Shown one piece after another: positions 1 through 25,479 of a DNA stretch of 25,479 nt. How positions within the stretch are numbered: the first letter of the stretch is position 1; the number at the start of each line of letters is the position of its first letter. A program made the translations under genes and the position numbers. This DNA comes from a virus. The notes beneath the pieces were generated by a model that did no database searches, was not told the origin of the DNA, and worked only from the letters and a program-made list of their open reading frames with translations. The DNA lies in the IMG/VR virus record IMGVR_UViG_3300027852_000159, positions 1 through 25,479 of that record, one strand, 5' to 3'.

Positions 1-105
1 TATTGTGGCGGGTATCTTGCAAAATCAAACACTTGGCAATGTATCTGGATGATCGCATTTAGTATTGCGATAGTTACTGTTCTTTTATTAAAATTGATCT
101 TTTAA
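1..105 (+). CDS. C-terminal end of a small membrane protein (partial)
   Basis: An open frame enters from the left edge and stops at TAA (103-105), giving 34 residues. Most of the visible part is one hydrophobic helix (IWMIAFSIAIVTVLLLKLIF) that ends the protein, so this is the C-terminal anchor of a membrane protein. The next gene starts 15 bases later on the same strand, which fits one operon. The start and the family lie outside the window, so no function can be given. Confidence 0.55.
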   Translation, partial: YCGGYLAKSNTWQCIWMIAFSIAIVTVLLLKLIF

Positions 106-120
106 GCTGAAGGGGGAAAC

Positions 121-324
121 ATGCAAAATTATCGGATTCAAATTAACGAAGTAAATCAAGAGGTGTACGAAACTTTTAAAAAAGTATTAAAGGAAAACGA
201 TGTTCCGACGACCGGATATCAGTCAGAATTAAATGAAATTAAAAATATCATATTTGAAAATGGACTAATGGAATTTAATAAAAACCCTAAGCGTTGGTTA
301 AAGAAATTGCAACAGGAGAAATAA
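121..324 (+). CDS. Hypothetical 67-residue protein
   Basis: An ATG follows a GGGGG-containing ribosome binding site (AAGGGGGAAAC), and the stop lies one base before the next start. The protein is charged and probably helical, rich in Lys, Glu and Asn, with a basic C-terminus (KRWLKKLQQEK). No Cys motif, membrane segment or known domain was seen. It sits at the head of the early operon, just before the Kelch-containing chimera. A small accessory or DNA-binding protein is possible, but that rests only on size and charge. Confidence 0.7.
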   Translation: MQNYRIQINEVNQEVYETFKKVLKENDVPTTGYQSELNEIKNIIFENGLMEFNKNPKRWLKKLQQEK

Positions 325-325
325 T

Positions 326-682
326 ATGAAAATTATCTCAAAAACTAAAGACAGATGTTTAATTGAGGCATACGATGGTAAAATATATGTAGGCACAAAA
401 GATGACAGAGGTTATTTGAAAGGCTGGTGGGCTTATGATATAGCCGAAAATACATGGACACGACTACTTGACTTCGCTGGAACTGCAAGATGTGATGCGG
501 TGGCAAAAGGCAAAATGAAAAAAAGAATAACAGATGAAGAAAACGAGAAAGAAATTGACGGGAATGTTCTTGTCTATCTGGAACAGGTCTATTACTGGAT
601 GGCGCATCTACCAGAAAGGTACGAAGATGATTATGAGACTATTCAAAAAATGATAAAACGTGTTGGAGGGGGTAATGGATAG
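326..682 (+). CDS. Chimeric early protein with one embedded Kelch-type blade
   Basis: 118 residues in three parts. Residues 1-15 (MKIISKTKDRCLIEA) look like the start of a common small phage early protein. Residues 16-60 are one Kelch-like blade with GKIYVGT, GYLKGWWAYD and NTWTRLLDF. Residues 61-118 are charged and helical and contain VYLEQVYYWMAHLPERYE. The middle part aligns without gaps to the tandem blades of the tail protein at 24534-25479: 33 of 45 residues and, by hand count, 101 of 135 bases are identical. The frame is open through both junctions. The 3' end overlaps the nuclease start by 8 bases (ATGGATAG), so the gene is part of a working operon. One blade cannot form a propeller, so a structural role is unlikely. 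That the blade replaced the middle of an ordinary early protein is inference. Confidence 0.8.
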   Translation: MKIISKTKDRCLIEAYDGKIYVGTKDDRGYLKGWWAYDIAENTWTRLLDFAGTARCDAVAKGKMKKRITDEENEKEIDGNVLVYLEQVYYWMAHLPERYEDDYETIQKMIKRVGGGNG

Positions 683-1625
683 ATTCATCGAGGTCGAAGC
701 AGTTGAAGAAATAAAGGCTGATTTCATTGACACGGATTACATTGTTGAGCCTATATATAAGATGAGCCGAGTCGATGTTGGAGGAAGCCGTCATTATATT
801 AAAGAAGATGACGGAGTGTTGACGCAAGCGCCGGCATTCACGACGATAATGAACAAAGTAGCGCCGATAAGTTATTATATCATCCAGTGGCAAATTGAGA
901 AAGGCAAGGAGAAAGCAAAGTGGTTGTTGAAAAATTCTGCTAATTATGGGACGTATTTACACGTACTGTGCGGTCAATATCTGCTTGGTCAATCGATGCC
1001 TTTAAGCAGTGGATTGTTGATGCTGTGTATGCAGGGTTTTTTTGAAGAGAAAAACTTTGACTTTTCAGAATGTCTAAAATGGATGAAGGAAGAAGGCAGG
1101 GATTTGCGAAAAGACATATACGGATTTTCTCGTTTTTGCAGAGACTTTAGCGTGAAGCCACTTGCAATTGAATACCCTATGATGCTCGACGATCGGTATG
1201 CGTGTACGTTAGACATTGTATGTAAAATGACGTACAAAAAGGAGATAATAACTGCCCTGATCGACATTAAATCGGGACAAAAAGGATTCCATGAAAGCCA
1301 TGAGATACAACTTGAAGCACAGAAGCAAGCATGGAATGCTGAGTTTCCCAATCAGCAAATAGACCGTGTTTTTAATTATGGCAGCCACAATTACAGGCTG
1401 CCTTTATCATCGAGAGTAACACCTTATAAGCTGAAAGACCAGACAGATTCTACTAATGCTTACAAGTGGGAGTTATATGTTAAGCTATGGCATGGAGATG
1501 TCAAGAAGCAGACCATAAAGCCTGTCACCGATTTTAACGGGGATAGTATCTTAACGATAGACAAAGAGCCTGAAGATGTCTTTGTGGAAATAGATCATCT
1601 TGATTATGAGGAGGTAGTATTTTGA
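675..1625 (+). CDS. PD-(D/E)XK nuclease, probable phage exonuclease (RecB/Cas4-like)
   Basis: 316 residues from the ATG at 675, chosen because GGAGGGGG lies just upstream. The GTG at 660 in the same frame has no such site. A central Asp sits in TLDIVCKM near residue 180, followed by the ALIDIKSGQKG strand (Asp about 197, Lys about 199) and a Gln helix (HEIQLEAQKQAW). This is the D, D/E-x-K, Q order of the PD-(D/E)XK superfamily, and the spacing is like RecB/Cas4-type and phage exonucleases. The expected role is metal-dependent DNA cleavage or end resection in phage recombination. It overlaps the preceding gene by 8 bases, and the XRE-type gene starts within its stop codon. The fold call is good; the exonuclease role is inferred from the fold and the neighbours. 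Confidence 0.8.
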   Translation: MDRFIEVEAVEEIKADFIDTDYIVEPIYKMSRVDVGGSRHYIKEDDGVLTQAPAFTTIMNKVAPISYYIIQWQIEKGKEKAKWLLKNSANYGTYLHVLCGQYLLGQSMPLSSGLLMLCMQGFFEEKNFDFSECLKWMKEEGRDLRKDIYGFSRFCRDFSVKPLAIEYPMMLDDRYACTLDIVCKMTYKKEIITALIDIKSGQKGFHESHEIQLEAQKQAWNAEFPNQQIDRVFNYGSHNYRLPLSSRVTPYKLKDQTDSTNAYKWELYVKLWHGDVKKQTIKPVTDFNGDSILTIDKEPEDVFVEIDHLDYEEVVF

Positions 1626-1975
1626 GCGAAAGAACAAACAAGAAAAAGAAAAAACAATCGAAAAAGGATGTTGCGATGGGGAAAACCTTGCGCCTTATCC
1701 GAACTATCAAAAATATATCTCTTGCTGAAATGGCTGAAAAACTTGAGATTTCTGTGTCCTATCTATCGGAGGTAGAAAACGGGAAGAAGTCAGTGTCTTG
1801 GTATATATGTTCCAATTATGGAGATATTGGGGAAACAAGTATAAGTTATATAGACAACTTTGCTTCACTGCTTGCTATATATCCTCGAAAAACTATGGAA
1901 TTGTGGCAAAGGAAAGCAATTGAAGCAATGGAACAGGTATCGAGTATAGGAAAAGATCATGGAGAAGAGGTATGA
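1622..1975 (+). CDS. XRE-type helix-turn-helix protein
   Basis: 117 residues from a TTG start overlapping the previous stop (TTGA). GAGGAGG lies about seven bases upstream, which supports TTG. After a very basic N-terminus (many Lys, residues 5-15), the segment LRLIRTIKNISLAEMAEKLE followed by ISVSYLSEVENGKKSVS is a typical XRE/Cro-CI helix-turn-helix. The recognition helix then runs into an extension (WYICSNYGDIGETSISYID) that is longer than usual before the last helices. It lies inside the early operon between the nuclease and the gp3-like gene, with overlaps on both sides. It is therefore made together with the recombination proteins rather than placed at a divergent lysogeny switch. Its target is unknown. 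Confidence 0.8.
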   Translation: MSERTNKKKKKQSKKDVAMGKTLRLIRTIKNISLAEMAEKLEISVSYLSEVENGKKSVSWYICSNYGDIGETSISYIDNFASLLAIYPRKTMELWQRKAIEAMEQVSSIGKDHGEEV

Positions 1976-3003
1976 ACGGAAGAATAAAAAGAGAAGGGGA
2001 AAAAGAAAAAATTGCTATCATCGGGAATATTAAAATAGGCAGGAAGAAAGACAATGGCCTTCCAGAGTCATTAGATTATTTCATCGCTGATAGCAAATAC
2101 AAGGCTCATTTTGATAGAGAATTTCCAGAAAAGCCTAAAAGCATTGAAGTTGTCTTTCTTTCCGACAATATTGAGGACGTATGCTTTGAGAGATACGAGA
2201 TCAGGCAAGGTGCAAAATTGTTTGGTTACGGCAATGGATTTGACTTTTTTGTTTGGGATGAGAAAACAATCGATCCTGTTACCGGCCAATTTGGAGCGTA
2301 TGCGCACAAGACGATTGAGGATGAGCCTGACATAAAGGAAAAGGTCGCAAAGCAGGTCGATGGGAAGTGGGACGAGATTTTAACCATGCGTTTCCTCATC
2401 CCACGCATTAAGGGCATTTGGGGGGTTTGGCAGTTATCCACGAAGGGCGCTCAAAGCTCGATACCGGGAATTGTTGGGGTTTTTGATGCTATTCAAAAGA
2501 TGGCTGGTACAGTCAAGAATATGGCTTTCGATCTATCAGTGAAAAAAGTCAAAAGTCAGAAGCCGGGAACGAAGTCTTTATTTCCTGTGCTTCAATTAGT
2601 TCCGAACTTGTCCCATGAGAACCTCCAGAAGGTCCATGATTTCCTTGACAATGGTATAGAATTCAGGGGAATATTGACAGAGGAAGCAATTGAGCAAATA
2701 GAACAAGCAAAACAGCCTTTGATTGAAGCTCCGGGAAAAGAATACTTGGAAAAGCACGACGAACCCATACGTACTCAGATGGGTCTTTCTGTGGAGAAAT
2801 TTGACGCTATTTGCAAGGCTCTGGATAAAATGCCTAAAAAAATTAAAGACTATTTTTTTGTAAATGACATGGGGGTAGATGCCCAATATGCGTTTTGCAA
2901 AGAAAGGAACGGCGATGAGAAGCTGATGATCGAAGAGATCAAGGCGTGGGAGATTTCAGAGCAGTTTAATCAAATTGATAATAATATGTCTATACCAGAT
3001 TAA
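1972..3003 (+). CDS. Phage protein resembling gp3-like recombination directionality factors
   Basis: 343 residues; the start overlaps the XRE stop as ATGA. The N-terminal half (IGRKKDNGLPESLDYFIADS, then FPEKPKSIEVVFLSDNIEDV and CFERYEIRQGAKLFGYGNG) is recalled as the conserved core of a phage family annotated as recombination directionality factor-like (gp3 of phiC31 type), often left as hypothetical. The central part (MRFLIPRIKGIWGVWQLSTK, then IPGIVGVFDAIQKMAG) is also typical of it. In phiC31 such a protein turns the serine integrase to excision. No integrase is visible here, so that role is not shown, and a general DNA-transaction role beside the nuclease is equally possible. The C-terminus is helical and acidic. 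Recognition is from memory of the family. Confidence 0.6.
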   Translation: MNGRIKREGEKEKIAIIGNIKIGRKKDNGLPESLDYFIADSKYKAHFDREFPEKPKSIEVVFLSDNIEDVCFERYEIRQGAKLFGYGNGFDFFVWDEKTIDPVTGQFGAYAHKTIEDEPDIKEKVAKQVDGKWDEILTMRFLIPRIKGIWGVWQLSTKGAQSSIPGIVGVFDAIQKMAGTVKNMAFDLSVKKVKSQKPGTKSLFPVLQLVPNLSHENLQKVHDFLDNGIEFRGILTEEAIEQIEQAKQPLIEAPGKEYLEKHDEPIRTQMGLSVEKFDAICKALDKMPKKIKDYFFVNDMGVDAQYAFCKERNGDEKLMIEEIKAWEISEQFNQIDNNMSIPD

Positions 3004-3025
3004 AAAGATGAAAAGGAGGAATATT

Positions 3026-3157
3026 GTGACGAAATCAGTAAGAATTGAAATAAACGAAAATGGTACATGGTCAGCATATATTTTTGATCATTGTATTTTT
3101 GTTGGAACTTATGAGGATTGTCGAATAGAATTGTTGTATCATGGGGAGTATGTATAA
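3026..3157 (+). CDS. Hypothetical 43-residue protein (GTG start)
   Basis: AAAAGGAGG six bases upstream selects the GTG at 3026. The in-frame ATG at 2975 lies inside the previous gene and has no ribosome binding site. The product is 43 residues, alternating polar and hydrophobic, with GTWSAYIFDHCIFVGTYEDC, so probably a small beta-rich fold. No family was recognised. It lies in the early operon. Confidence 0.6.
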   Translation: MTKSVRIEINENGTWSAYIFDHCIFVGTYEDCRIELLYHGEYV

Positions 3158-3186
3158 AAAAACAAGGAGTTGTCAAGGAGAAAATT

Positions 3187-3387
3187 ATGATTGATATAAT
3201 TTGGGTTGAAAAGAATCCAAGATTGGCTACGCTAAAACTCCAAGCACTTATGAAGGCCATAGAGCCTTTTGCTGAAAAACCTACAGAGCGAATGGACTTT
3301 TATTATTGCCATTACGATGTCACCACGAAGGAAGAGTGCGGGAGGTGTAGTCGTGCTATTGCAGCTTACGAAGCATTGAACATGTAA
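3187..3387 (+). CDS. Hypothetical 66-residue protein
   Basis: The ATG at 3187 follows AAGGAG at a good distance; the longer frame from 3118 overlaps the previous gene. The C-terminal half has FYYCHYDVTTKEECGRCSRA, which gives Cys and His residues that could bind a metal, but the spacing is not a clear zinc finger. It is one of a run of small Cys-containing early proteins between 3187 and 3959. Function unknown. Confidence 0.65.
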   Translation: MIDIIWVEKNPRLATLKLQALMKAIEPFAEKPTERMDFYYCHYDVTTKEECGRCSRAIAAYEALNM

Positions 3388-3418
3388 CAATAAATTACTA
3401 AAAAGAAGAAGTAAGATT

Positions 3419-3643
3419 ATGAAGCTATGTGACAGAAAATGTAATATATGCCCTATTGTTAATCATTCAAACAGTAGGATGGTGACAAGAATAATGAATG
3501 AAGCCTATGATAAATTTGGAAAGGAATTCTATCATATTGTTCAAAGTAATTGTCCGAATTTGACATGCTGTTTTGATTGTCAGTTTGATAATTTTTGTCA
3601 CATCGAGGGATGTAAAATAGTGGAAGATTTAGAAATAAGATAA
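3419..3643 (+). CDS. Cys-rich 74-residue protein, possible metal binder
   Basis: 74 residues with eleven Cys, arranged as CDRKCNICP at the N-terminus and CPNLTCCFDCQFDNFCHIEG towards the C-terminus. The pairs flank a helical middle. This suggests a zinc or iron-sulfur site, but the pattern matches no family that was recognised. The binding site is AGAAGAAGTAAG, weaker than its neighbours. The gene ends 10 bases before the next start. Confidence 0.7.
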   Translation: MKLCDRKCNICPIVNHSNSRMVTRIMNEAYDKFGKEFYHIVQSNCPNLTCCFDCQFDNFCHIEGCKIVEDLEIR

Positions 3644-3653
3644 GGAGAAAATA

Positions 3654-3959
3654 ATGAATAAACCGAATTTTTATTGTTCAAGTGATTATGCAGGATTGTC
3701 ATTTAAAAATGGAAGTTTTTATTATGGTTATGAGCATTCAATTTGCTCGGAATGTGGTAAAACCACTAAAAATGGAAGTGAATATTGCGATATCTGCGAG
3801 GATGCTGATAGAGAATGGTGCTTCATGGCTACAATTAACGGCGAAGAAATTGTGATTTCTTTCTCGAAGTTGGGAGCTACAGACATGTTCGATGTGGTTG
3901 AGTGCTTAAATATGGGTATAGGTTGGATATTAACAAAATACCGGTTGGTCAAGGAGTGA
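3654..3959 (+). CDS. Zinc-ribbon-containing hypothetical protein
   Basis: 101 residues after AAGGAGAAAATA. The middle carries a compact zinc ribbon: CSECGKTTKNGSEYCDICED, two CxxC knuckles about 12 residues apart. The N-terminus is aromatic and Gly-rich and the C-terminus is a hydrophobic, probably folded domain (FDVVECLNMGIGWILTKYRL). It may bind DNA, RNA or a host protein; nothing more specific can be said. It is co-transcribed with the flanking small genes. Confidence 0.75.
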   Translation: MNKPNFYCSSDYAGLSFKNGSFYYGYEHSICSECGKTTKNGSEYCDICEDADREWCFMATINGEEIVISFSKLGATDMFDVVECLNMGIGWILTKYRLVKE

Positions 3960-3963
3960 CGAG

Positions 3964-4185
3964 ATGAGAAAGAAAAAGATATTAGCAGAATTAGAGGATT
4001 TGCAGGCTAAAATGTATCGGATAAGAACATGGATTGACGCATATCCAGTTAAGATTTTCTCGGAGCCTGATTTTGAAAAGGCGCACAAGGTCTTAACGGA
4101 AAATGGTATGACTCTTGATTCGATTGCAGCAAGCAATATGCGTCATGTGCTGGATGGGATTAAAAAAATAATAGATTTGGAGTGA
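3964..4185 (+). CDS. Hypothetical 73-residue helical protein
   Basis: AAGGAGTGACGAG precedes the ATG, and the previous gene stops five bases upstream. The N-terminus (MRKKKILAELEDLQAKMYRI) is a basic amphipathic helix. The rest is also mostly helical and ends KKIIDLE. No cysteines and no membrane segment. No family was recognised. Confidence 0.65.
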   Translation: MRKKKILAELEDLQAKMYRIRTWIDAYPVKIFSEPDFEKAHKVLTENGMTLDSIAASNMRHVLDGIKKIIDLE

Positions 4186-4198
4186 AAGGAGGTGTAAA

Positions 4199-4339
4199 AT
4201 GTTAGCAACTATAGTTTATAATGAATTATTGATATTTTGCTTGGGAATATTAACCGGAATAGCTCTTGGATTATTTGTTAGCATATTAATAAAGGCTTTT
4301 CAAATACTTAAAGAGTATCAAGAATTTAATAATAAATGA
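4199..4339 (+). CDS. Single-span 46-residue membrane protein
   Basis: This short ORF has a full AAAGGAGGTG site seven bases before the ATG, which is strong support for translation. Residues about 9-33 form one hydrophobic helix (LLIFCLGILTGIALGLFVSI), followed by a charged cytoplasmic-type tail (KAFQILKEYQEFNNK). It is most likely an inner-membrane protein of the early operon. Single-span phage proteins of this size include holin-like, superinfection and host-takeover proteins, and nothing here decides between them. Confidence 0.65.
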   Translation: MLATIVYNELLIFCLGILTGIALGLFVSILIKAFQILKEYQEFNNK

Positions 4340-4351
4340 AAAGGAGGAATA

Positions 4352-4564
4352 ATGAAGGCACAATGTATAATAGAGCTTACAGACGAACAAATAGACGAAT
4401 TAGGAGAGTTACAAGATATGGCGGTGGAGGCAGATAAAAGCGGTAAGAAAGGAGCTATAGTTGCACAAGTAGTTCCGTCTAAAGGGATGATGTATTGTAC
4501 TTTTTGGTCAAATGGTATTATAATGAAAGTATGGGAGGCAATAGACGAAGATCCGCCTCATTAA
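4352..4564 (+). CDS. Hypothetical 70-residue protein
   Basis: AAAGGAGGAATA precedes the ATG. The N-terminal half is acidic (ELTDEQIDELGELQDMAVEA). The second half is beta-like (GAIVAQVVPSKGMMYCTFWS) and ends EDPPH. The layout of a short acidic helix followed by strands resembles many small phage early proteins. No domain was recognised. Confidence 0.65.
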   Translation: MKAQCIIELTDEQIDELGELQDMAVEADKSGKKGAIVAQVVPSKGMMYCTFWSNGIIMKVWEAIDEDPPH

Positions 4565-4581
4565 ATAAAAAAAAGGAGCGT

Positions 4582-4659
4582 ATGATCAGAGAGGATGTTT
4601 ACGACATTGCTGTTGCAGTCGGAAGGGATTTATATCGATGGAGGTTAAATAATGAATAA
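4582..4659 (+). CDS. 25-residue micropeptide
   Basis: AAAAAGGAGCGT lies directly before the ATG, and the stop overlaps the start of the next gene by 8 bases, as at other junctions of this operon. The product (MIREDVYDIAVAVGRDLYRW plus five residues) is a short amphipathic helix. The ribosome binding site and coupling suggest that it is translated, perhaps mainly to feed ribosomes into the next gene. Function unknown. Confidence 0.5.
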   Translation: MIREDVYDIAVAVGRDLYRWRLNNE

Positions 4660-5056
4660 AGTATGCGAGCAGATGAAAAAAAAAGAAGGTTATAACGCCA
4701 TTCCTACAAGCTGGTATAATAATGTTCAAAAAGGTCTAAATAATGTGGGATTTGATTTTGTAGCCTATTTGATATTGGTTGATATTTTGGATTGGTATAC
4801 ACCCATTGAAGCAATAGATATGGCGACTGAAAAGTTTATCGGATATAAGCAAAAGTTTAAAGGCGACAAGTTGCGGATAAATTGTCGATATTATTCACGC
4901 CTTTTTGAATTATCGGTATACACTGTCAATCAAGCAATAAATCATTTAGTCGAATTAGGGCTAATAACAAGAGATTACATCCGCCCTCTTGACAATGAAA
5001 TGTATTTAGAACCGATAATTAAAAATATATTAGCTATTACATATCCGGAGGAATAA
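4652..5056 (+). CDS. Winged-helix-like phage protein, possible replication accessory
   Basis: 134 residues after GGAGG. The segment DKLRINCRYYSRLFELSVYT followed by VNQAINHLVELGLITRDYI reads as a winged helix-turn-helix: helix, recognition helix, then a wing ending in RDYI. The layout resembles the N-terminal domain of phage replication initiators such as the one at 6201-7058, which has the same order of a residency domain and then a helix-turn-helix, but this protein has no C-terminal domain. It could bind DNA or act as a partner or antagonist of the initiator. The call rests on pattern only. Confidence 0.5.
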   Translation: MNKVCEQMKKKEGYNAIPTSWYNNVQKGLNNVGFDFVAYLILVDILDWYTPIEAIDMATEKFIGYKQKFKGDKLRINCRYYSRLFELSVYTVNQAINHLVELGLITRDYIRPLDNEMYLEPIIKNILAITYPEE

Positions 5057-5057
5057 T

Positions 5058-5381
5058 ATGGAAAAAGAAGAAAGGTTAGTGAAACCAGAAGTTACAAAAT
5101 ATGAAATAGATGTCTTGAAAGATGCACTCATTGACAGGAATGAGGGAATTTATTACCTACGAAAAGAATTAAAGGAGAAGCAAGACAAAACAGATATCAT
5201 GGAAGATGTGGTAAGAAGTAAGGACGAAGAAATAGATTTCCTGAAAGATGCATTAAAAGATAGGGAGGATGGGATATATATTCTGCGTGAAGAAAGAAGT
5301 AATCTTAAAGATGAAATAAACGATCTACAGAATGAAGTAACTGAATTAAGAGGGGAAATAAGATGTTTTAAGGAGGAATGA
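5058..5381 (+). CDS. Coiled-coil protein with an internal duplication
   Basis: 107 residues, almost entirely charged heptads, so a long coiled coil. Two segments match: residues 17-37 (IDVLKDALIDRNEGIYYLRK) and 59-79 (IDFLKDALKDREDGIYILRE). They lie exactly 42 residues, or six heptads, apart, so the duplication keeps the heptad phase. The start is two bases after the preceding stop. The protein probably forms a dimeric rod and acts as a scaffold or partner for its neighbours; the partner is unknown. Confidence 0.7.
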   Translation: MEKEERLVKPEVTKYEIDVLKDALIDRNEGIYYLRKELKEKQDKTDIMEDVVRSKDEEIDFLKDALKDREDGIYILREERSNLKDEINDLQNEVTELRGEIRCFKEE

Positions 5382-5382
5382 T

Positions 5383-5712
5383 ATGTGCAAGAATCAAATA
5401 ATGATAGACGATATAATAATTGATGCGGTTAGAAGGTTTGAGGCCATTGTTAACAGTCTTGACTGTGAACGTGATATAGACAATGGATATACATGCACAG
5501 TACATGCCGATAGAATTTTAGCTTGGGTGGCATTGAAAAAATTAGAAAATTATATTGAAGATATAGAAGAGACCAAAGAGGATAGAATTGTGTTGTTGGA
5601 GGAACGGGTCGAATTGTTAGAGAGGCAAAATAAAAAAAGGAAATGCCCTGGTGGTGTATATTATACCGACAATATTGATATCGACACTATACAATTGATA
5701 CCAATTCGTTGA
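5383..5712 (+). CDS. Hypothetical 109-residue protein
   Basis: The ATG follows AAGGAGG and overlaps closely with the end of the coiled-coil gene. Residues about 55-90 are charged and coiled-coil-like (EDIEETKEDRIVLLEERVEL) and precede a basic patch (RQNKKRKCPGG). The C-terminus is short and beta-like. It is the last gene before the control region at 5713-5957. It may pair with the coiled-coil protein upstream, but this is a guess from its makeup. Confidence 0.65.
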   Translation: MCKNQIMIDDIIIDAVRRFEAIVNSLDCERDIDNGYTCTVHADRILAWVALKKLENYIEDIEETKEDRIVLLEERVELLERQNKKRKCPGGVYYTDNIDIDTIQLIPIR

Positions 5713-5733
5713 TTAAAATATTTTCGTTTAATC
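5711..5733. promoter_or_regulatory. Inverted repeat, possible operator
   Basis: Perfect 7-bp arms GATTAAA (5711-5717) and TTTAATC (5727-5733) flank 9 AT-rich bases. The repeat lies 13 bases upstream of the -35 box of the promoter at 5747-5775, a position suited to an activator or repressor site. A weak hairpin is the alternative. The XRE-type protein at 1622-1975 is a candidate ligand by inference only. Confidence 0.35.
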
Positions 5734-5746
5734 CATAAAAAATTAC

Positions 5747-5775
5747 TTGACGGATAAACTGTAATATGAGATATT
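5747..5775 (+). promoter_or_regulatory. Sigma70-like promoter before the replication block
   Basis: TTGACG (5 of 6 matches) is separated by 17 bases from GATATT (4 of 6). Transcription would start near 5782. The RNA would carry a small stem-loop (CATAAAAGA 5787-5795 against TCTTTGCTTATG 5804-5815) and then the large hairpin at 5844-5926 before the first gene at 5958. The -10 box is imperfect, hence moderate confidence. Confidence 0.45.
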
Positions 5776-5843
5776 GAGCGTATGAGCATAAAAGATTTGC
5801 CAGTCTTTGCTTATGAAAACAAATAGAACGAATATAATAGATG

Positions 5844-5926
5844 ACGCTTTTTGTGAGAGATATAATATTCTGAACTTATTCGTTCGGCGGAATATTAATG
5901 GCAATCTCTCACGAAAGGCGTTTTTT
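5844..5926 (+). ncRNA. 83-nt structured leader hairpin ending in T6 (terminator or antiterminator-like)
   Basis: Arms 5844-5861 and 5904-5921 pair over 18 base pairs, of which two are G-U. Inside, TAATATTC (5863-5870) pairs with GAATATTA (5890-5897), and GAAC (5872-5875) with GTTC (5882-5885). The outer arm ends in a run of six T (5921-5926), as in an intrinsic terminator, though the stem is much longer than needed. It lies between a promoter and the replication genes, so it could be a conditional terminator, a put-like antitermination RNA, an RNase III site, or a cruciform used in replication. The structure is seen; the role is inference. Confidence 0.6.
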
Positions 5927-5957
5927 ATGTCAAAATCTAATAATAAGGAGATGTAAT

Positions 5958-6182
5958 ATGCAAGCAGAAGTTCTAAATGCGGGTATTTTGTCTATGCAGG
6001 TTTGCGTACCAATTGGTTGGACTGATTGTCAAGTTTTAATTTTTGCAAATTGCGCAAATGAGTGTGGTACGGAAAATGGATGGTGTATCCGGAAAGAAGG
6101 TGACCGATATTTGAAAGGTGATCCAGAAAGGAATCCATGTCAAGAGCGACAAGGATTTGTGCACGTTATGTTGGATGCATAA
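5958..6182 (+). CDS. Hypothetical 74-residue Cys-containing protein
   Basis: The start is the ATG at 5958 after AAGGAGATGTAAT. The in-frame ATG at 5898 lies in the hairpin and has no binding site. The protein has five Cys, including CQVLIFANCANECGTENGWC, which reads as a beta-rich fold with a possible metal or disulfide site. It is the first gene of the replication block. No family was recognised. Confidence 0.65.
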   Translation: MQAEVLNAGILSMQVCVPIGWTDCQVLIFANCANECGTENGWCIRKEGDRYLKGDPERNPCQERQGFVHVMLDA

Positions 6183-6200
6183 TCAATGGAGAGGAATAAT

Positions 6201-13532: not shown

Positions 13533-13668
13533 CCAGAAGTTTGAAACTGAAAAGTTTATATGTCCTAAGTGCGGGGAGGATTTAGTAGAAAGTATAGGGT
13601 GGGGTTTAGGATTCGTTTATGTTATGATTTTTTTGTTTGTGATGTATTGTCTGGGGTTAGCCTGTTAG
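13510..13668 (+). CDS. Zinc ribbon plus membrane anchor, 52 residues
   Basis: GAGAAGGGAG lies directly at the ATG. Residues 1-25 (MKHCVHCDQKFETEKFICPK and CGEDL) are a zinc ribbon with two CxxC knuckles. Residues about 31-52 (GWGLGFVYVMIFLFVMYCLG) are one membrane helix that ends the protein. A cytoplasmic zinc ribbon tethered to the membrane is the result. It stops with TAG immediately before the start of another membrane gene. Function unknown. Confidence 0.6.
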   Translation: MKHCVHCDQKFETEKFICPKCGEDLVESIGWGLGFVYVMIFLFVMYCLGLAC

Positions 13669-13791
13669 ATGAAACTGCTCTGGCGTGTTCTCTGGCGATT
13701 GTTTATGTATGCTGTAGTATGTATTATGTCTGGTATATTCGGACTATGTGTTGGATATATTTTGGGTTTGAAAATAAAATATTGGTGGTGA
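13669..13791 (+). CDS. 40-residue membrane peptide
   Basis: The ATG abuts the previous TAG, so translation is probably coupled, although no separate binding site is clear. A basic, amphipathic start (MKLLWRVLWRLFMYAV) is followed by a hydrophobic helix (VCIMSGIFGLCVGYILGLKI) and a short basic-aromatic tail. It would insert in the inner membrane. Its pairing with the preceding anchored zinc ribbon suggests a joint job, which is inference. A longer frame from 13569 in another register is less well supported. Confidence 0.45.
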   Translation: MKLLWRVLWRLFMYAVVCIMSGIFGLCVGYILGLKIKYWW

Positions 13792-13812
13792 AATTAAAAA
13801 AGGAGAAAGAAA

Positions 13813-14160
13813 ATGGGTCGTTGTTTGACTGATAAAGAAAAATATGGTTTATCTCTTGCAAAATTGGATGAGTTAATCGATTCTATGCCGAATCCTGATT
13901 TTTTTTTCGTAGAATGTAGTATGAAAAAGTTGATAGGTCATTTTGGCTCTTGGGTTCGGGTTCAAGTCGCTTTCTATGATTTTATCTTTGAGGTGTCTCT
14001 GAAAATGTGTGTGGGATGTACTAATCAACAGATGGTTGCTGGATTTGCTGATGGAGAAGATTTTTATGAGGATGCTGTAGAGGTGATTGAAGCTAAATTC
14101 AAGACTTTTGATGAAGCGTGGGAGGCTTTTAAACAATCAGTGATTGGCGTATCATGTTAG
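13813..14160 (+). CDS. Hypothetical 115-residue protein
   Basis: AAAAGGAGAAAGAAA precedes the ATG. The sequence is mixed alpha/beta, with a helical start (TDKEKYGLSLAKLDELIDSM) and an acidic C-terminal helix (FKTFDEAWEAFKQSVIGV). The ATG of the HNH-like gene lies 7 bases before its end. No family was recognised. Confidence 0.65.
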   Translation: MGRCLTDKEKYGLSLAKLDELIDSMPNPDFFFVECSMKKLIGHFGSWVRVQVAFYDFIFEVSLKMCVGCTNQQMVAGFADGEDFYEDAVEVIEAKFKTFDEAWEAFKQSVIGVSC

Positions 14161-14507
14161 ATGGAAATTTTAATGTGAAATGTAAATATTGCGGTAATCC
14201 AGCAACTGAAGAACATCATCGATTCAGTCAGTCAAAATCGAACATAAGGAAATATGGCAGGAAGCTGATAAACGACAAGCGGAACTTGGAAGATGTATGC
14301 TCCGCTTGCAATTCTTCTCATGCGGTTGTTAAGTCGATCAATGATCGGGAATTTTGTAGGGAGTTGGATATTATGAAGTGTATTTACTGTGCTTGTTATT
14401 TGAAGGGTGGTTGTGTTGTCGTTGAAAATCAATTCCCTGATGCTGAATCATGCAGGTTTTTTATATTCTCTCTGGATAAGTATAGCGCTAGTCCAAAACT
14501 GAACTGA
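14154..14507 (+). CDS. HNH-like endonuclease or zinc-binding protein
   Basis: 117 residues; the start overlaps the previous gene by 7 bases. The N-terminal block has KCKYCGN, then EEHHRFSQSKSN, then RNLEDVCSACNSSHA: CxxC, the His-His pair, an Asn and the second CxxC in the order of the zinc-bound HNH fold. A second CIYCACYLKGGC lies further on and is unusual. HNH proteins often stand near the terminase and assist packaging; here the terminase is 2.4 kb away, beyond a minus-strand island. A nuclease role is likely but not certain. Its stop abuts the stop of the convergent gene at 14508. Confidence 0.6.
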   Translation: MLDGNFNVKCKYCGNPATEEHHRFSQSKSNIRKYGRKLINDKRNLEDVCSACNSSHAVVKSINDREFCRELDIMKCIYCACYLKGGCVVVENQFPDAESCRFFIFSLDKYSASPKLN

Positions 14508-14624
14508 TTATATCGATACGAGCAAGAACATACACCATAAGGCAATTATACACAATGTGAACGAGGGCATACACCAAAAGGCAATAGTATATAATATAAA
14601 TGTCGTAAAGCGAATGTTTGCCAT
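14508..14624 (-). CDS. 38-residue hydrophobic peptide
   Basis: On the minus strand, AAAAGGAGAAAATC precedes the ATG at 14624. The product is almost wholly hydrophobic and contains a near-repeat: TIAFWCM and then IALWCM, coded by two imperfect copies of a roughly 45-bp unit. It would span the membrane once or twice. The size and makeup resemble small phage membrane or type I toxin-like peptides, but no antitoxin RNA was identified. Its stop abuts the stop of the convergent HNH-like gene. A 74-codon frame in another register covers the same DNA and is less supported. Confidence 0.5.
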   Translation of the reverse strand: MANIRFTTFILYTIAFWCMPSFTLCIIALWCMFLLVSI

Positions 14625-14639
14625 GATTTTCTCCTTTTA

Positions 14640-14680
14640 TTTTTTTGCCCCTGCCTTCAAGGAAAGCAAGGGTAAAAAAA
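14640..14680 (-). repeat. Intergenic hairpin repeat, copy 1
   Basis: On the minus strand a 7-base U run, CCCUUGC, a loop, GCAGGGG and a 7-base A run form a stem of about 14 pairs. A second copy lies at 15653-15694. Each copy separates two minus-strand genes, directly after one stop and before the ribosome binding site of the next. The T run is in the 5' arm, not after the stem, so this is not a normal terminator. mRNA protection or RNase III processing are alternatives. Confidence 0.5.
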
Positions 14681-15031
14681 CTATTTTTCTTCATTCTCAA
14701 AATAGCTGTCAATTTCTGCCTCTACTTCCTTGCTCTCTTCCAATTGCGCCTTGACTGCTTCCTTGATTTCCTTATACAACTCAAATATCTGCTTCATAGT
14801 CATTTCATGAATCAAAATTTTCTCTCCACAATTTTTCATGAAATCTTGGCAACTATTTGTAATAAAATCATAATCCCTACCTGCACTGTATTTTATGCTG
14901 CTATAACAATCGTTATACCCAGGATCCCCAGTACAACTTCCACACCATTCGTCCTCTTCCCGTGGGGTCTCAACTCCTTCTACTTTCCTCATTTCCTCAT
15001 GAATTTTTCTGATTAAATCTTTTTTGGTCAT
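14681..15031 (-). CDS. Hypothetical 116-residue Cys-containing protein
   Basis: The ATG at 15031 (minus) follows ACAAGGAGAGAATATC. The N-terminal part is acidic and helical (MTKKDLIRKIHEEMRKVEGV). The centre has several Cys (WCGSCTGDPGYNDC, and later SCQDFMKNCGE), perhaps a metal site. The C-terminus is a long charged helix (MTMKQIFELYKEIKEAVKAQ). It is the longest intact gene of the minus-strand island. Function unknown. Confidence 0.7.
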   Translation of the reverse strand: MTKKDLIRKIHEEMRKVEGVETPREEDEWCGSCTGDPGYNDCYSSIKYSAGRDYDFITNSCQDFMKNCGEKILIHEMTMKQIFELYKEIKEAVKAQLEESKEVEAEIDSYFENEEK

Positions 15032-15062
15032 GATATTCTCTCCTTGTATCTTTTTTTTGATT

Positions 15063-15104
15063 TGTGGGCGCTGGAATCGAACCAGCGCTTAAACCGTTCC
15101 CACG
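15063..15104 (-). other. tRNA acceptor/T-arm-like mini-element (42 nt)
   Basis: On the minus strand, GCTGG TTCGATT CCAGC forms a 5-bp stem with a 7-base loop that has every invariant of a tRNA T-arm (G53, T54, T55, C56, A58, C61). It is followed by GCCCACA in the acceptor position. Eleven bases before the T-arm stands CGTGGGA, which pairs with GCCCACA in the correct register at five of seven positions. D-arm and anticodon arm are missing, so it is no functional tRNA. It may be a deletion remnant of a tRNA, the core of an attachment site in a tRNA 3' end, or a tRNA-like fold of the mRNA. It lies in the gap between two minus-strand genes. Confidence 0.5.
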
Positions 15105-15108
15105 CGAA

Positions 15109-15399
15109 TTAAAAATCTTGAATAATTATGCTTGTGGAGCTTTGAATTACGGTGGTGTTTTCTTCTAGCTCTTCAAGCGTTGTGATGTCCGGGTGTTCTT
15201 TTGTGATTTCTTCCATATCTTCATATTCAGAATATTCACAACAAAAAGCGATAACATCAAGTTCAATCTACTTACCTGTATTTTCTTCAAGCTCTTCAAG
15301 ATAATCAAACAGCGCCTTAAGTCCGTCGTATGAAAAGTTGTCTGGTCTGATCTTGCGAAATGCGTCTTGAAAGTCGTGTGATGTGATTGTTTGTATCAT
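15109..15399 (-). pseudogene. Conserved small phage protein with an in-frame TAG
   Basis: On the minus strand the frame from ATG at 15399 to TAA at 15109 holds 95 codons and one TAG (15268-15270) after residue 43. Before it is FSYDGLKALFDYLEELEENT; after it IELDVIAFCCEYSEYEDMEE. This is recognised as a widespread uncharacterised phage family in which the interrupted place reads T-G-E/D-E-I-E-L-D-V-I-A. A single GAG to TAG change would explain it, and the rest of the frame is intact. The protein is either truncated to 43 residues, or TAG is read through. The binding site is GGAGCAAAACC. Confidence 0.75.
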
Positions 15400-15448
15400 G
15401 GTTTTGCTCCTTTTTTTAATTTTTTTGTTGCTTTTTTATTTCCCCTTT

Positions 15449-15631
15449 TTATAATGGTTGAACTGGGGAAAAGATGCCTTCTTGACCTCGGTATTGTCTG
15501 AGTCGATACATACAGAATCGAGGTGATAGCATTATTTCACCGGTGCGGGTGAAGTCTGCTATTTCTTTGTTGGTTAAGCTGTAGAGTGTACGCTCTGAAA
15601 CTTTCGACTTGTAAGTGTAAAATTTTTTCAT
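15449..15631 (-). CDS. Hypothetical 60-residue basic protein
   Basis: AAAAAAGGAGAAAACATC lies before the ATG at 15631 (minus). The N-terminus is basic and aromatic (MKKFYTYKSKVSERTLYSLT), and the middle holds several Arg (RFCMYRLRQYRGQEG). It may bind nucleic acid. It is preceded by hairpin repeat copy 2 and lies second in the island operon. Confidence 0.6.
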   Translation of the reverse strand: MKKFYTYKSKVSERTLYSLTNKEIADFTRTGEIMLSPRFCMYRLRQYRGQEGIFSPVQPL

Positions 15632-15652
15632 GATGTTTTCTCCTTTTTTAAT

Positions 15653-15694
15653 TTTATTGCCCCTGTCTTCAATCAGAAAGCAAGGGTAAAAAAA
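15653..15694 (-). repeat. Intergenic hairpin repeat, copy 2
   Basis: The same plan as copy 1: on the minus strand a 7-base U run, CCCUUG, a loop, CAGGGG and an A-rich arm. The loop differs, and the inner stem (UUUC with GAAG) is kept although the bases between have changed. It lies directly after the stop of the 51-residue gene and before the binding site of the 60-residue gene. Conservation of the arms with a changed loop suggests that the structure matters. Confidence 0.5.
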
Positions 15695-15850
15695 TTAAAT
15701 GATTATTTCATATGTTTTGCCAAAAAGTACAATCTCGATCAATTCAGGTGGTTGGCAAAAGGTTTCTAAATATTCTTCTCTCGTTTTTGGTGTCCAGTAT
15801 TTTTTGGCTTGTTCTGGTAGTTGATCGTATGATGGCTGGTTTAATGCCAT
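15695..15850 (-). CDS. Hypothetical 51-residue protein
   Basis: First gene of the minus-strand island. AAGGAGAAAAGAAC precedes the ATG at 15850, and a sigma70-like promoter ends about 40 bases upstream. The protein begins MALNQPSYDQLPEQAKKYWT and ends IEIVLFGKTYEIII. The middle is helical (KTREEYLETFCQPPEL). No family was recognised. The short distance to the promoter supports the assignment. Confidence 0.65.
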   Translation of the reverse strand: MALNQPSYDQLPEQAKKYWTPKTREEYLETFCQPPELIEIVLFGKTYEIII

Positions 15851-15889
15851 GTTCTTTTCTCCTTGTTTGATTTTGTTGCTTTCAATAGG

Positions 15890-15918
15890 ACAATACTAAT
15901 TATCGTTGTGTTTGTCAA
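15890..15918 (-). promoter_or_regulatory. Sigma70-like promoter of the minus-strand island
   Basis: On the minus strand TTGACA (6 of 6; plus-strand positions 15913-15918) is followed after exactly 17 bases by TATTGT (4 of 6; 15890-15895). The first gene begins about 40 bases downstream. It is well placed to drive all five genes down to 14508, in the direction opposite to the early and late genes. Confidence 0.7.
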
Positions 15919-16165
15919 GTCTTTTTTAGGAAAAAAGTAGTTAATAGAGAAAAAAGTTATAAAAAGGAGAAAGCTGCGATAAAGCTCATGCGAGAATCAA
16001 CGTACAGCTTGATTGTGAAAGCTCCTTGACATATTACTATAGAAGCATTAGAGATGTTAGAGAGTGTGGGAAAAAAGTTGCAAAGATAGGATGTATCAAG
16101 TAGTATATAGTAGTTAGTCTGCATTTAAGGAAGAGAGCGGTAATCTTGCATCAGGGAGCGCTTGA
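15919..16165 (+). other. Gene-poor stretch with decayed reading frames
   Basis: No intact gene with a binding site was found. A plus-strand frame starting at an ATG near 15988 reads for 13 codons, meets TGA, then continues open for about 20 more codons (HITIEALEMLESVGKKLQR) before TAG, which looks like the remains of a gene. A TTGACA occurs at 16026-16031, but no acceptable -10 box lies 16-18 bases away. AGCT-containing short repeats occur near 15972-16022. No other structure was recognised. Confidence 0.3.
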
Positions 16166-16639: not shown

Positions 16640-16668
16640 TTGACAGTGCATGTGTATATTGTTATACT
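16640..16668 (+). promoter_or_regulatory. Sigma70-like promoter for packaging and virion genes
   Basis: TTGACA (6 of 6, 16640-16645) and TATACT (5 of 6, 16663-16668) with a 17-base spacer are close to consensus. Transcription would start near 16675, about 200 bases before the terminase small subunit. It is the strongest plus-strand promoter seen in the window and could be used by the host polymerase without a phage sigma factor. Confidence 0.75.
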
Positions 16669-16876: not shown

Positions 16877-17347
16877 ATGGAAGATGTTAGTGTTTATTTC
16901 CCGGATTTACCGGAGGTAGATTCGAGTGAGGTTTACGAGTTGCCTGAGGGTTCTGGTTCGGAGCATTTTCGTGGTCGTGGTAGGGTTATTGCGATTGAGT
17001 ATTTTTTGGAGTTAGATGAGAAGGGTTTGTCGCAGTCGCAGATTGCTACTTTATTGGGTTGTAGTAGGATGACGGTTAATCGACGGTTGAAGAAGGCTGA
17101 TTTGGCGGGGTTGCGTCGTTTTAAGAAGCATGAGCCTGATGTTTTGTCTCATCAGCGTCGGCGGATAATTGATAAGATAACGGATGAGGATTTGGCGGAT
17201 GCTGGTTTGCGAGAGAAGGTGTCTTCGTATCAGATGTTGTTAAATTCGGAGCGTTTGTTGACTGATAAGAGTACGTCGAATGTTCACACGGTGCATTCGG
17301 ATGTTGCGAAGTTGAAGGAGTTAGATGCAGGAACGAAGGGAGATTGA
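16877..17347 (+). CDS. terS: Terminase small subunit (helix-turn-helix DNA recognition)
   Basis: 156 residues. The segment KGLSQSQIATLLGCSRMTVN followed by RRLKK is a clear helix-turn-helix, as used by small terminase subunits to find the packaging site. A basic linker and a C-terminal acidic-helical part follow (SYQMLLNSERLLTDKSTSNV). It precedes and overlaps the large subunit, which supports the name. No Shine-Dalgarno sequence lies before the ATG, unlike nearly all genes here. All 11 lysines use AAG and the coding strand is very rich in G and T, which also marks it off from its neighbours. An unrelated regulator in this position is the alternative. Confidence 0.75.
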   Translation: MEDVSVYFPDLPEVDSSEVYELPEGSGSEHFRGRGRVIAIEYFLELDEKGLSQSQIATLLGCSRMTVNRRLKKADLAGLRRFKKHEPDVLSHQRRRIIDKITDEDLADAGLREKVSSYQMLLNSERLLTDKSTSNVHTVHSDVAKLKELDAGTKGD

Positions 17348-24534: not shown

Positions 24535-25479
24535 TGAAATATTTACCTATACCACAGCTTAAAGGACTTGTTAAGGACTATCATCGCCGTATGATAAGTG
24601 ATGACAGGGTCTCGGATTGTGAGAATATCATTTTTAAAGATGGCAAAGCTTCGCGGCGCTGGGGGTATGAGGTTTGGGGTGGTGGCAGTGGCTTGCCATT
24701 AGACGATGAGATTACTCACCTTGCAGTGTACGAGAAAGCGAAAACACAAGATACGTGGATACTTGCCTTTACGCCGAGAGATACTTATAAGTGTGGACTG
24801 AATAGATGGACGCAAATGACTGACTTCGGCGGAACTGCAAGAAGCTATGCGGTTGCAGCGGTATATAATGGTAAAATATACGTCGGTACAGGAAGTAGTG
24901 GTGGTTATTTAAAAGATTGGTGGGCTTATGACGTTACTGGGAATACGTGGACACAATTGCTTGACTTTGGCGGAACTGCAAGACGTGACGCGGTTGCAGC
25001 GGCGTACAACGGTAAAATATATGTCGGCACAGGTTATGTCGGTGAAGATTATACTGATGACTGGTGGGCTTATGACGTTACTGGGAATACGTGGACACAA
25101 TTGCTTGACTTTGGCGGAACTGCAAGACGTGACGCGGTTGCAGCGGCGTACAACGGTAAAATATATGTCGGCACAGGGCGTGATGGCACAGGTTATACTG
25201 ATGACTGGTGGGCTTACGATATAGCTGGGAATACGTGGACACAATTGCTTGACTTTGGTGGAACTGCAAGACGCGACGCTGTTGCAGCGGTGTACAACGG
25301 TAAAATATACGTAGGCACAGGGTATGACGAGGGGGGTCTTACTGATGATTGGTGGGCTTATGACGTTACTGGGAATACGTGGACACAATTGCTTGACTTT
25401 GGCGGAACTGCAAGACGTGACGCGGTTGCAGCGGCGTACAACGGTAAAATATATGTCGGCACAGGTAATGGCATCGGTG
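24534..25479 (+). CDS. Kelch-type beta-propeller tail protein (open at the window end)
   Basis: The ATG at 24534 shares its A with the previous stop (TAATG), and the frame stays open to the right edge (315 codons). The N-terminus (KYLPIPQLKGLVKDYHRRMI, then CENIIFKDGKASRRWGYEVW) resembles the start of P22 gp10-like tail hub proteins. From about residue 91, blades of 48 residues follow, each with NTWTQLLDFGGTARRDAVAA, YNGKIYVGTG and WWAYD. P22 gp10 also has a propeller fold, so a tail hub or receptor-binding role is inferred. The blades are almost identical in sequence except for a patch of 8-9 residues after GTG. Confidence 0.75.
   Translation, partial: MKYLPIPQLKGLVKDYHRRMISDDRVSDCENIIFKDGKASRRWGYEVWGGGSGLPLDDEITHLAVYEKAKTQDTWILAFTPRDTYKCGLNRWTQMTDFGGTARSYAVAAVYNGKIYVGTGSSGGYLKDWWAYDVTGNTWTQLLDFGGTARRDAVAAAYNGKIYVGTGYVGEDYTDDWWAYDVTGNTWTQLLDFGGTARRDAVAAAYNGKIYVGTGRDGTGYTDDWWAYDIAGNTWTQLLDFGGTARRDAVAAVYNGKIYVGTGYDEGGLTDDWWAYDVTGNTWTQLLDFGGTARRDAVAAAYNGKIYVGTGNGIG
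24804..25479 (+). repeat. Tandem 144-bp coding repeat (Kelch blades)
   Basis: TGGTGGGCTTA begins at 24918, 25062, 25206 and 25350, exactly 144 bases apart, so the repeat keeps the frame. A less similar unit starts near 24804 (RWTQMTDFGGTARSYAVAAV). Most of each unit is near-identical even at silent sites. The patch between GTG and WWAYD differs: SSGGYLKD, YVGEDYTDD, RDGTGYTDD, YDEGGLTDD. Silent-site identity suggests recent duplication or gene conversion. A diverged 135-bp copy lies at 371-505. Confidence 0.9.

Follow-up and report, generated by a model that had tools for sequence, protein, structure and literature searches.

The window analysed in this study, a virus record of 25,479 bases (GC 37.9%), contains at positions 5843-5922 of the + strand a real, unusually long, terminator-like hairpin (Table 1). 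It is read here, with about even confidence, as a promoter-proximal intrinsic terminator whose stem is unusually long and which acts as a gate within a rightward early-type gene run; a leaky attenuator is the alternative form of this reading. If the hairpin does terminate transcription, it would give a P22-like phage one place from which to set how much transcription enters the initiator gene and the putative origin. No published description of the hairpin was found at title level, a search that carries no wider claim about the literature.

Table 1. Features of the hairpin region and of the genes that follow it, in window coordinates
Feature	Position	Strand	Description and basis
Perfect 7-bp inverted repeat, possible operator	5711-5733	.	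GATTAAA-N9-TTTAATC; sequence
Sigma-70-like promoter	5747-5775	+	TTGACG 5747-5752, 17 nt, GATATT 5770-5775; sequence, score
Small leader stem-loop	5782-5814	+	-8.9 kcal/mol; folding
Possible 14-codon leader ORF	5782-5826	+	MSIKDLPVFAYENK; translation; weak
Element P	5826-5834	+	GAACGAATA; exact complement of hairpin loop segment
Long hairpin	5843-5922	+	19-bp basal stem 5843-5861/5904-5922, then inner helices; folding
Inner helices of long hairpin	5863-5870/5890-5897 (8-bp)	+	second helix 4-bp, GAAC/GUUC; folding
Element P'	5877-5885	+	TATTCGTTC; upper part of hairpin, complement of P
T6 run at stem base, terminator-like tail	5921-5926	+	sequence
Shine-Dalgarno and 74-aa gene	5944-6182	+	TAAGGAG, start 5958; small, conserved phage protein family
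O-like replication initiation protein gene	6201-7058	+	phrog_9773, E 1.1e-22
Two iteron-like copies, in O-like gene	6537-6575	+	TTGCCCCAAA(A/G)GGATA; repeat search

The gene run and its long hairpin

The window encodes a P22-like portal protein (31-36% identity to 20 phage records, among the matches listed), a phrog_283 major head protein and a large terminase. Its + strand gene run spans 121 to approximately 14,500 and includes genes for an exonuclease-like protein, an HTH protein, a Gp3-like recombination directionality factor, the O-like initiator, DnaB and NinB. The gap holding the hairpin measures 245 nt, the largest between the + strand genes considered, and the initial annotation was correct in placing the hairpin before the replication genes, with one small gene (74 aa) intervening. 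The product of this gene contains Cys (MQVCVP...CGTENGW...VHVMLDA) and, with homologues at 36 loci (L055-L090; 57-60% identity in the first two), belongs to a small, conserved protein family that is widespread in phages, for which no model was found in Pfam, PHROGs or NCBIfam. The iteron-like copies within the O-like gene (16 nt each, at 6537 and 6560, spaced 23 nt) follow a pattern with three window matches at up to three mismatches compared to 0.43 expected, and a 12-nt tandem repeat lies 3' of them at 6605-6646, inside the same gene; the repeats at 6537-6646 are a candidate replication origin. At the left end of the window, 367-505 (within the first genes) shares 74-77% DNA identity with Kelch-like repeats at 24800-25479, the opposite contig end, for which a moved repeat copy and a trace of genome circularity are both candidate explanations.

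Folding bore out the description of an 18-bp stem with two inner helices and a T6 end, the stem reaching 19 bp when the outermost G-U pair is included. The basal stem comprises seven G-C and three G-U pairs (hand count from the arms), and an asymmetric internal loop separates it from the 8-bp helix. Three G-C pairs at the stem base adjoin the T6 run, on the + strand only, and the first two T residues of the run sit in the outermost pairs of the stem. This is the arrangement looked for in an intrinsic terminator, namely a stable hairpin with a GC-rich base and a T-run directly after it. T6 words start at 58 of approximately 25,470 window positions, so the chance of a T6 run falling no more than three bases from a stem end is roughly 1%.

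Minimum free energy folding, a check proposed in the initial annotation, placed the region far beyond its shuffles: 5782-5926 (+) has an energy of -44.6 kcal/mol compared to a shuffle mean of -25.4 (z -5.87), with none of 200 shuffles as good, and a scan of both strands with 5-nt steps found no 85-nt stretch more stable than the one from 5841. Of 13 intergenic stretches folded, 11 (two overlapping) ranged from z +1.2 to -1.6, and the two exceptions were the hairpin gap (z -4.2) and 13236-13373 (z -5.6). In a whole-window scan, values of z below -6 also occur elsewhere, including coding positions 11061 and 23401 (15 shuffles each), and thus the z-score alone is not unique to the hairpin. The longest helix in 20 shuffles of the window was 18 bp, helices of at least 16 bp occurred in most of the 20, and the window itself has another 19-bp helix besides the basal stem.

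Promoter-like site, leader and transient pairing

The promoter named in the initial annotation is present, with TG preceding its second hexamer, and ranks above most sites without being exceptional. Its score, calculated from textbook sigma-70 frequencies, is reached by 32 of the 50,896 positions on both strands, a rate that predicts approximately 0.15 chance sites of this quality across the 245-nt gap; a simple promoter scan of 1-16000 returned 77 sites compared to 59.2 in shuffles. The site is a fair promoter-like candidate, and the position of its hexamer suggests a transcription start at 5780-5782. The inverted repeat said to lie just upstream is also there, without a mismatch, and overlaps the stop codon that ends the preceding gene. 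Perfect 7-bp repeats with a gap of 3-20 are at chance level (37 in the window compared to 34-50 in five shuffles) and the pattern does not recur as an operator (three window matches at up to three mismatches compared to 5.1 expected). The best + strand promoter-like site of the window lies at 16640-16668 (TTGACA-17-TATACT with TG before), within a 552-nt gap before an HTH/terminase-small-like gene at 16877, and is a candidate late promoter.

The small stem-loop described earlier was likewise recovered by folding, and a 28-nt spacer separates this 33-nt element from the 80-nt hairpin. No Shine-Dalgarno sequence was found for the leader ORF at 5782, which is weakly indicated and would be leaderless only if transcription starts at 5782. 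The complementarity between P and P' is new and was absent from the initial annotation. A comparable 9-mer complement occurs in 30 of 3632 other 61-nt stretches and in 2.1% of shuffled leaders, frequencies from a test picked post hoc, after the match was noticed. When growing prefixes of the RNA were folded, P:P' dominated from 5884 to approximately 5906 with a probability of 0.51 to 0.94 (peak 0.94 at 5886), dropped to 0.38 at 5908 and was at most 0.01 from 5910 as the basal stem won. The pairing is absent from the full-length fold, where no alternative structure survives, and forcing it in the complete RNA costs approximately 25 kcal/mol (-14.3 versus -39.0). Because of this cost and the loss by 5910, P:P' would be at most a transient competitor. 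A second 9-nt complement, CATAAAAAA/TTTTTTATG at 5734-5742/5921-5929, was set aside for its low complexity.

Approximately 12 RNA bases are hidden inside the polymerase, so a switch from P:P' to the stem would fall as the polymerase reaches the T-run. These modelled folds allow for a kinetic, timed terminator governed by P and P', which is quite unlikely. Here P would capture P' in the nascent RNA, with the 5' arm of the stem enclosed in a 42-nt loop, and the 19-bp stem would nucleate only once RNA to approximately 5908-5910 is free, with the polymerase near T6. Masking or stabilising P would then set the rate of termination, and hence the initiator dose and origin transcription; this could be the work of a phage protein, of a ribosome stopping at the leader ORF TAG (5824-5826), or of the pseudoknot itself.

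Relatives and a second hairpin

Nucleotide searches of the blastn type against phages and plasmids returned nothing significant for the hairpin region, and single-protein scans with the O-like, 74-aa, DnaB and portal proteins found no relatives in viral_contigs. A scan with the inner stem arms gave five loci with no T-run at the stem and no blastn similarity to the window, which were dismissed as chance, and the only locus from a scan of genome_contigs (L002) was a spurious match within a Rieske-like frame. A mobile-repeat reading was rejected, with no plasmid copies and only short phage matches at E 0.7. With E values up to 1 allowed, no Rfam covariance model matched the window.

A degenerate pattern modelled on the end of the 74-aa protein matched 47 stretches, two contigs among them being true relatives, and the alignment of these led to the 36 loci (near-duplicates included, all used). 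The 200 nt upstream reached z <= -3 in one of the 36 (L066, -4.1, compared to -4.5 in the window). The hairpin in L066, a GC-rich phage, lies within 100 nt before position 2501 and is a canonical terminator-like one, unlike that of the window; no hairpin comparable to 5843-5922 was seen upstream of the 36 homologues, and the long hairpin is therefore no fixed companion of the 74-aa gene. A hairpin suspected in L040 was dropped, the same contig giving z +1.8 as L068. Other early proteins were matched in only two of the 36 loci (L055, L057). A portal alignment yielded 80 loci with a best identity of 49% (L096), on whose contig the replication region was not found. None of 30 early-region window proteins matched the 80 portal loci at E up to 1e-3, where the portal control matched all 80, and DnaB and the O-like protein had no match in the whole L096 and L097 records, which are possibly fragments. 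As a background for helices, 121 related-phage loci (L055-L175; 1,092,037 bases or 1.09 Mb, duplicates kept) contained 31 helices of at least 16 bp, including nine with at least 17 bp, at least six G-C pairs and at most four G-U pairs. None of these nine has a T-run on either side, and thus the combination of hairpin and T-run is not background.

The second intergenic stretch that stands out holds a larger hairpin at 13245-13356 (+), new beyond the initial annotation, with an energy of -52.4 kcal/mol (z -6.78) and none of 200 shuffles as good. Its helices of 19, 7 and 8 bp follow one another with single mismatches between, and it ends approximately 6 bases 5' of an AGGAGG ahead of a zinc-ribbon-like gene (start 13374). 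It has no T-run, so termination does not follow from the mere presence of a long hairpin in this gene run. By eye, its 5' arm carries a 19-codon hydrophobic frame, the ATG of which overlaps the upstream stop (ATGA). With two exceptional intergenic hairpins in one gene run, either processing or termination could be an organising principle of this phage, which is directly testable.

Termination and its alternatives

As an intrinsic terminator, the hairpin at 5843-5922 would act on RNA polymerase that starts near 5780-5782 or arrives from the upstream genes and makes the leader RNA. The base of the 19-bp hairpin would close during transcription of the T6 tract, and most transcripts would stop at approximately 5922-5926 to give a leader RNA of approximately 145 nt, while a read-through or antiterminated fraction would continue into the 74-aa gene, the O-like initiator with the putative origin, and DnaB. 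The conditional termination proposed initially stands in part: a stop before the replication genes fits the anatomy, while a start at this site, termination and its partial or regulated nature are what we infer. The promoter-like site lies approximately 70 nt upstream of the stem and the T-run 31 nt before the next start codon, so that the hairpin would gate, not isolate, genes without another promoter, affecting both the supply of initiator and the transcription of the putative origin. The T6 run directly at the GC-rich base tips the balance towards an intrinsic terminator for this hairpin, and the terminator-like hairpin before the 74-aa homologue of L066 also counts in favour. Against this reading counts the weak pairing predicted in longer folds between some T residues of the run and 5837-5841, as does the stem-plus-internal-loop shape, which suits RNase III too. 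The size of the stem-loop also counts against it, exceeding the TransTermHP limits as stated in PMC12207403 (stem-loop up to 59 nt, loop 3-13), which are the detection bounds of one program and not the definition of a terminator. Gates of this size fall beyond the range of the usual terminator searches and may escape annotation.

The main rival, a real but lesser possibility, is that the hairpin is an RNase III site and mRNA-end stabiliser, cut in a polycistronic early mRNA, with an incidental T-run; cutting would leave the mRNA of the 74-aa and replication genes with a free 5' end, as in the T7 early region. A long interrupted duplex of about two helical turns, with stem, asymmetric internal loop and stem as in T7 sites, is consistent with this, as are two exceptional hairpins in one gene run, each before a well-marked ribosome-binding site, the larger lacking a T-run and the 11 other gap stretches being unremarkable. 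However, a processing site would not be expected to carry a T6 run right at the GC-rich base of its stem, and the hairpin ends approximately 36 nt, and its internal loop lies approximately 55-60 nt, before the start codon. T7 sites are mostly nearer, and most are cut roughly 30 nt before the start codon. It is unlikely that the region specifies a free-standing phage small RNA of approximately 145 nt, trans-acting or titrating, with its own promoter and terminator and with the replication genes served by other promoters. While the promoter-like site, small stem-loop, single-stranded A-rich linker and U-tailed hairpin do make a compact unit, the lack of an Rfam match and of relatives in the searches above argues against it, exact complements elsewhere in the window are at most 12 nt, and the 31 nt from T-run to start codon would leave the downstream genes dependent on read-through or on a promoter inside the hairpin.

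The put-like role raised in the initial annotation, in which the RNA would modify RNA polymerase so that antitermination becomes processive, found no support and is scarcely credible. Two stem-loops near a promoter-like site recall put RNAs, which PMC9378689 describes as measuring approximately 70 nt, having two stem-loops and lying near early promoters. Here, however, the stem-loops measure 33 and 80 nt and stand 28 nt apart instead of adjoining within approximately 70 nt, the second is followed by U6, and 5734-5960 had no HK022 match at E up to 1 (blastn, which a short diverged put could escape). It is also very unlikely that the hairpin acts at DNA level or is a palindrome that arose by chance, without any role as RNA: no conservation could be demonstrated and the window has a second 19-bp helix, but the T-run is on one strand only and both energy and length are beyond all shuffles tested.

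In early operons of phages, intrinsic terminators can act as gates (lambda tR1/tL1, T7 TE), and the window hairpin resembles them in having a GC-rich stem base, then directly a T-run, before a gene block. It differs from usual terminators in its stem-loop of approximately 80 nt, 19-bp basal stem, inner helices and 42-nt stretch above the stem; T7 TE, in contrast, is a simple 8-bp hairpin. Attenuators with alternative pairing present a promoter, leader, complementary leader element and terminator in the same order as here, whereas P:P' engages neither arm of the stem and is lost once the full-length RNA is folded, and a ligand or translated leader is not supported. The RNase III sites of T7 are interrupted long intergenic hairpins before gene starts, as in this early-type run, but they have shorter helices and no adjacent T6, compared to the 19-bp stem and T6 of the window. 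Folded at the positions assumed for them, R0.3, R0.5, R1, R1.1 and R1.3 gave -22 to -30 kcal/mol, and R0.7 gave no hairpin at its assumed position, which may be wrong. The HK022 put RNA shares two stem-loops by a promoter with the window and differs in spacer, U-run and sequence. In lambda, the origin is located inside O, and here the iteron-like copies and tandem repeats of the candidate origin likewise lie within the O-like gene.
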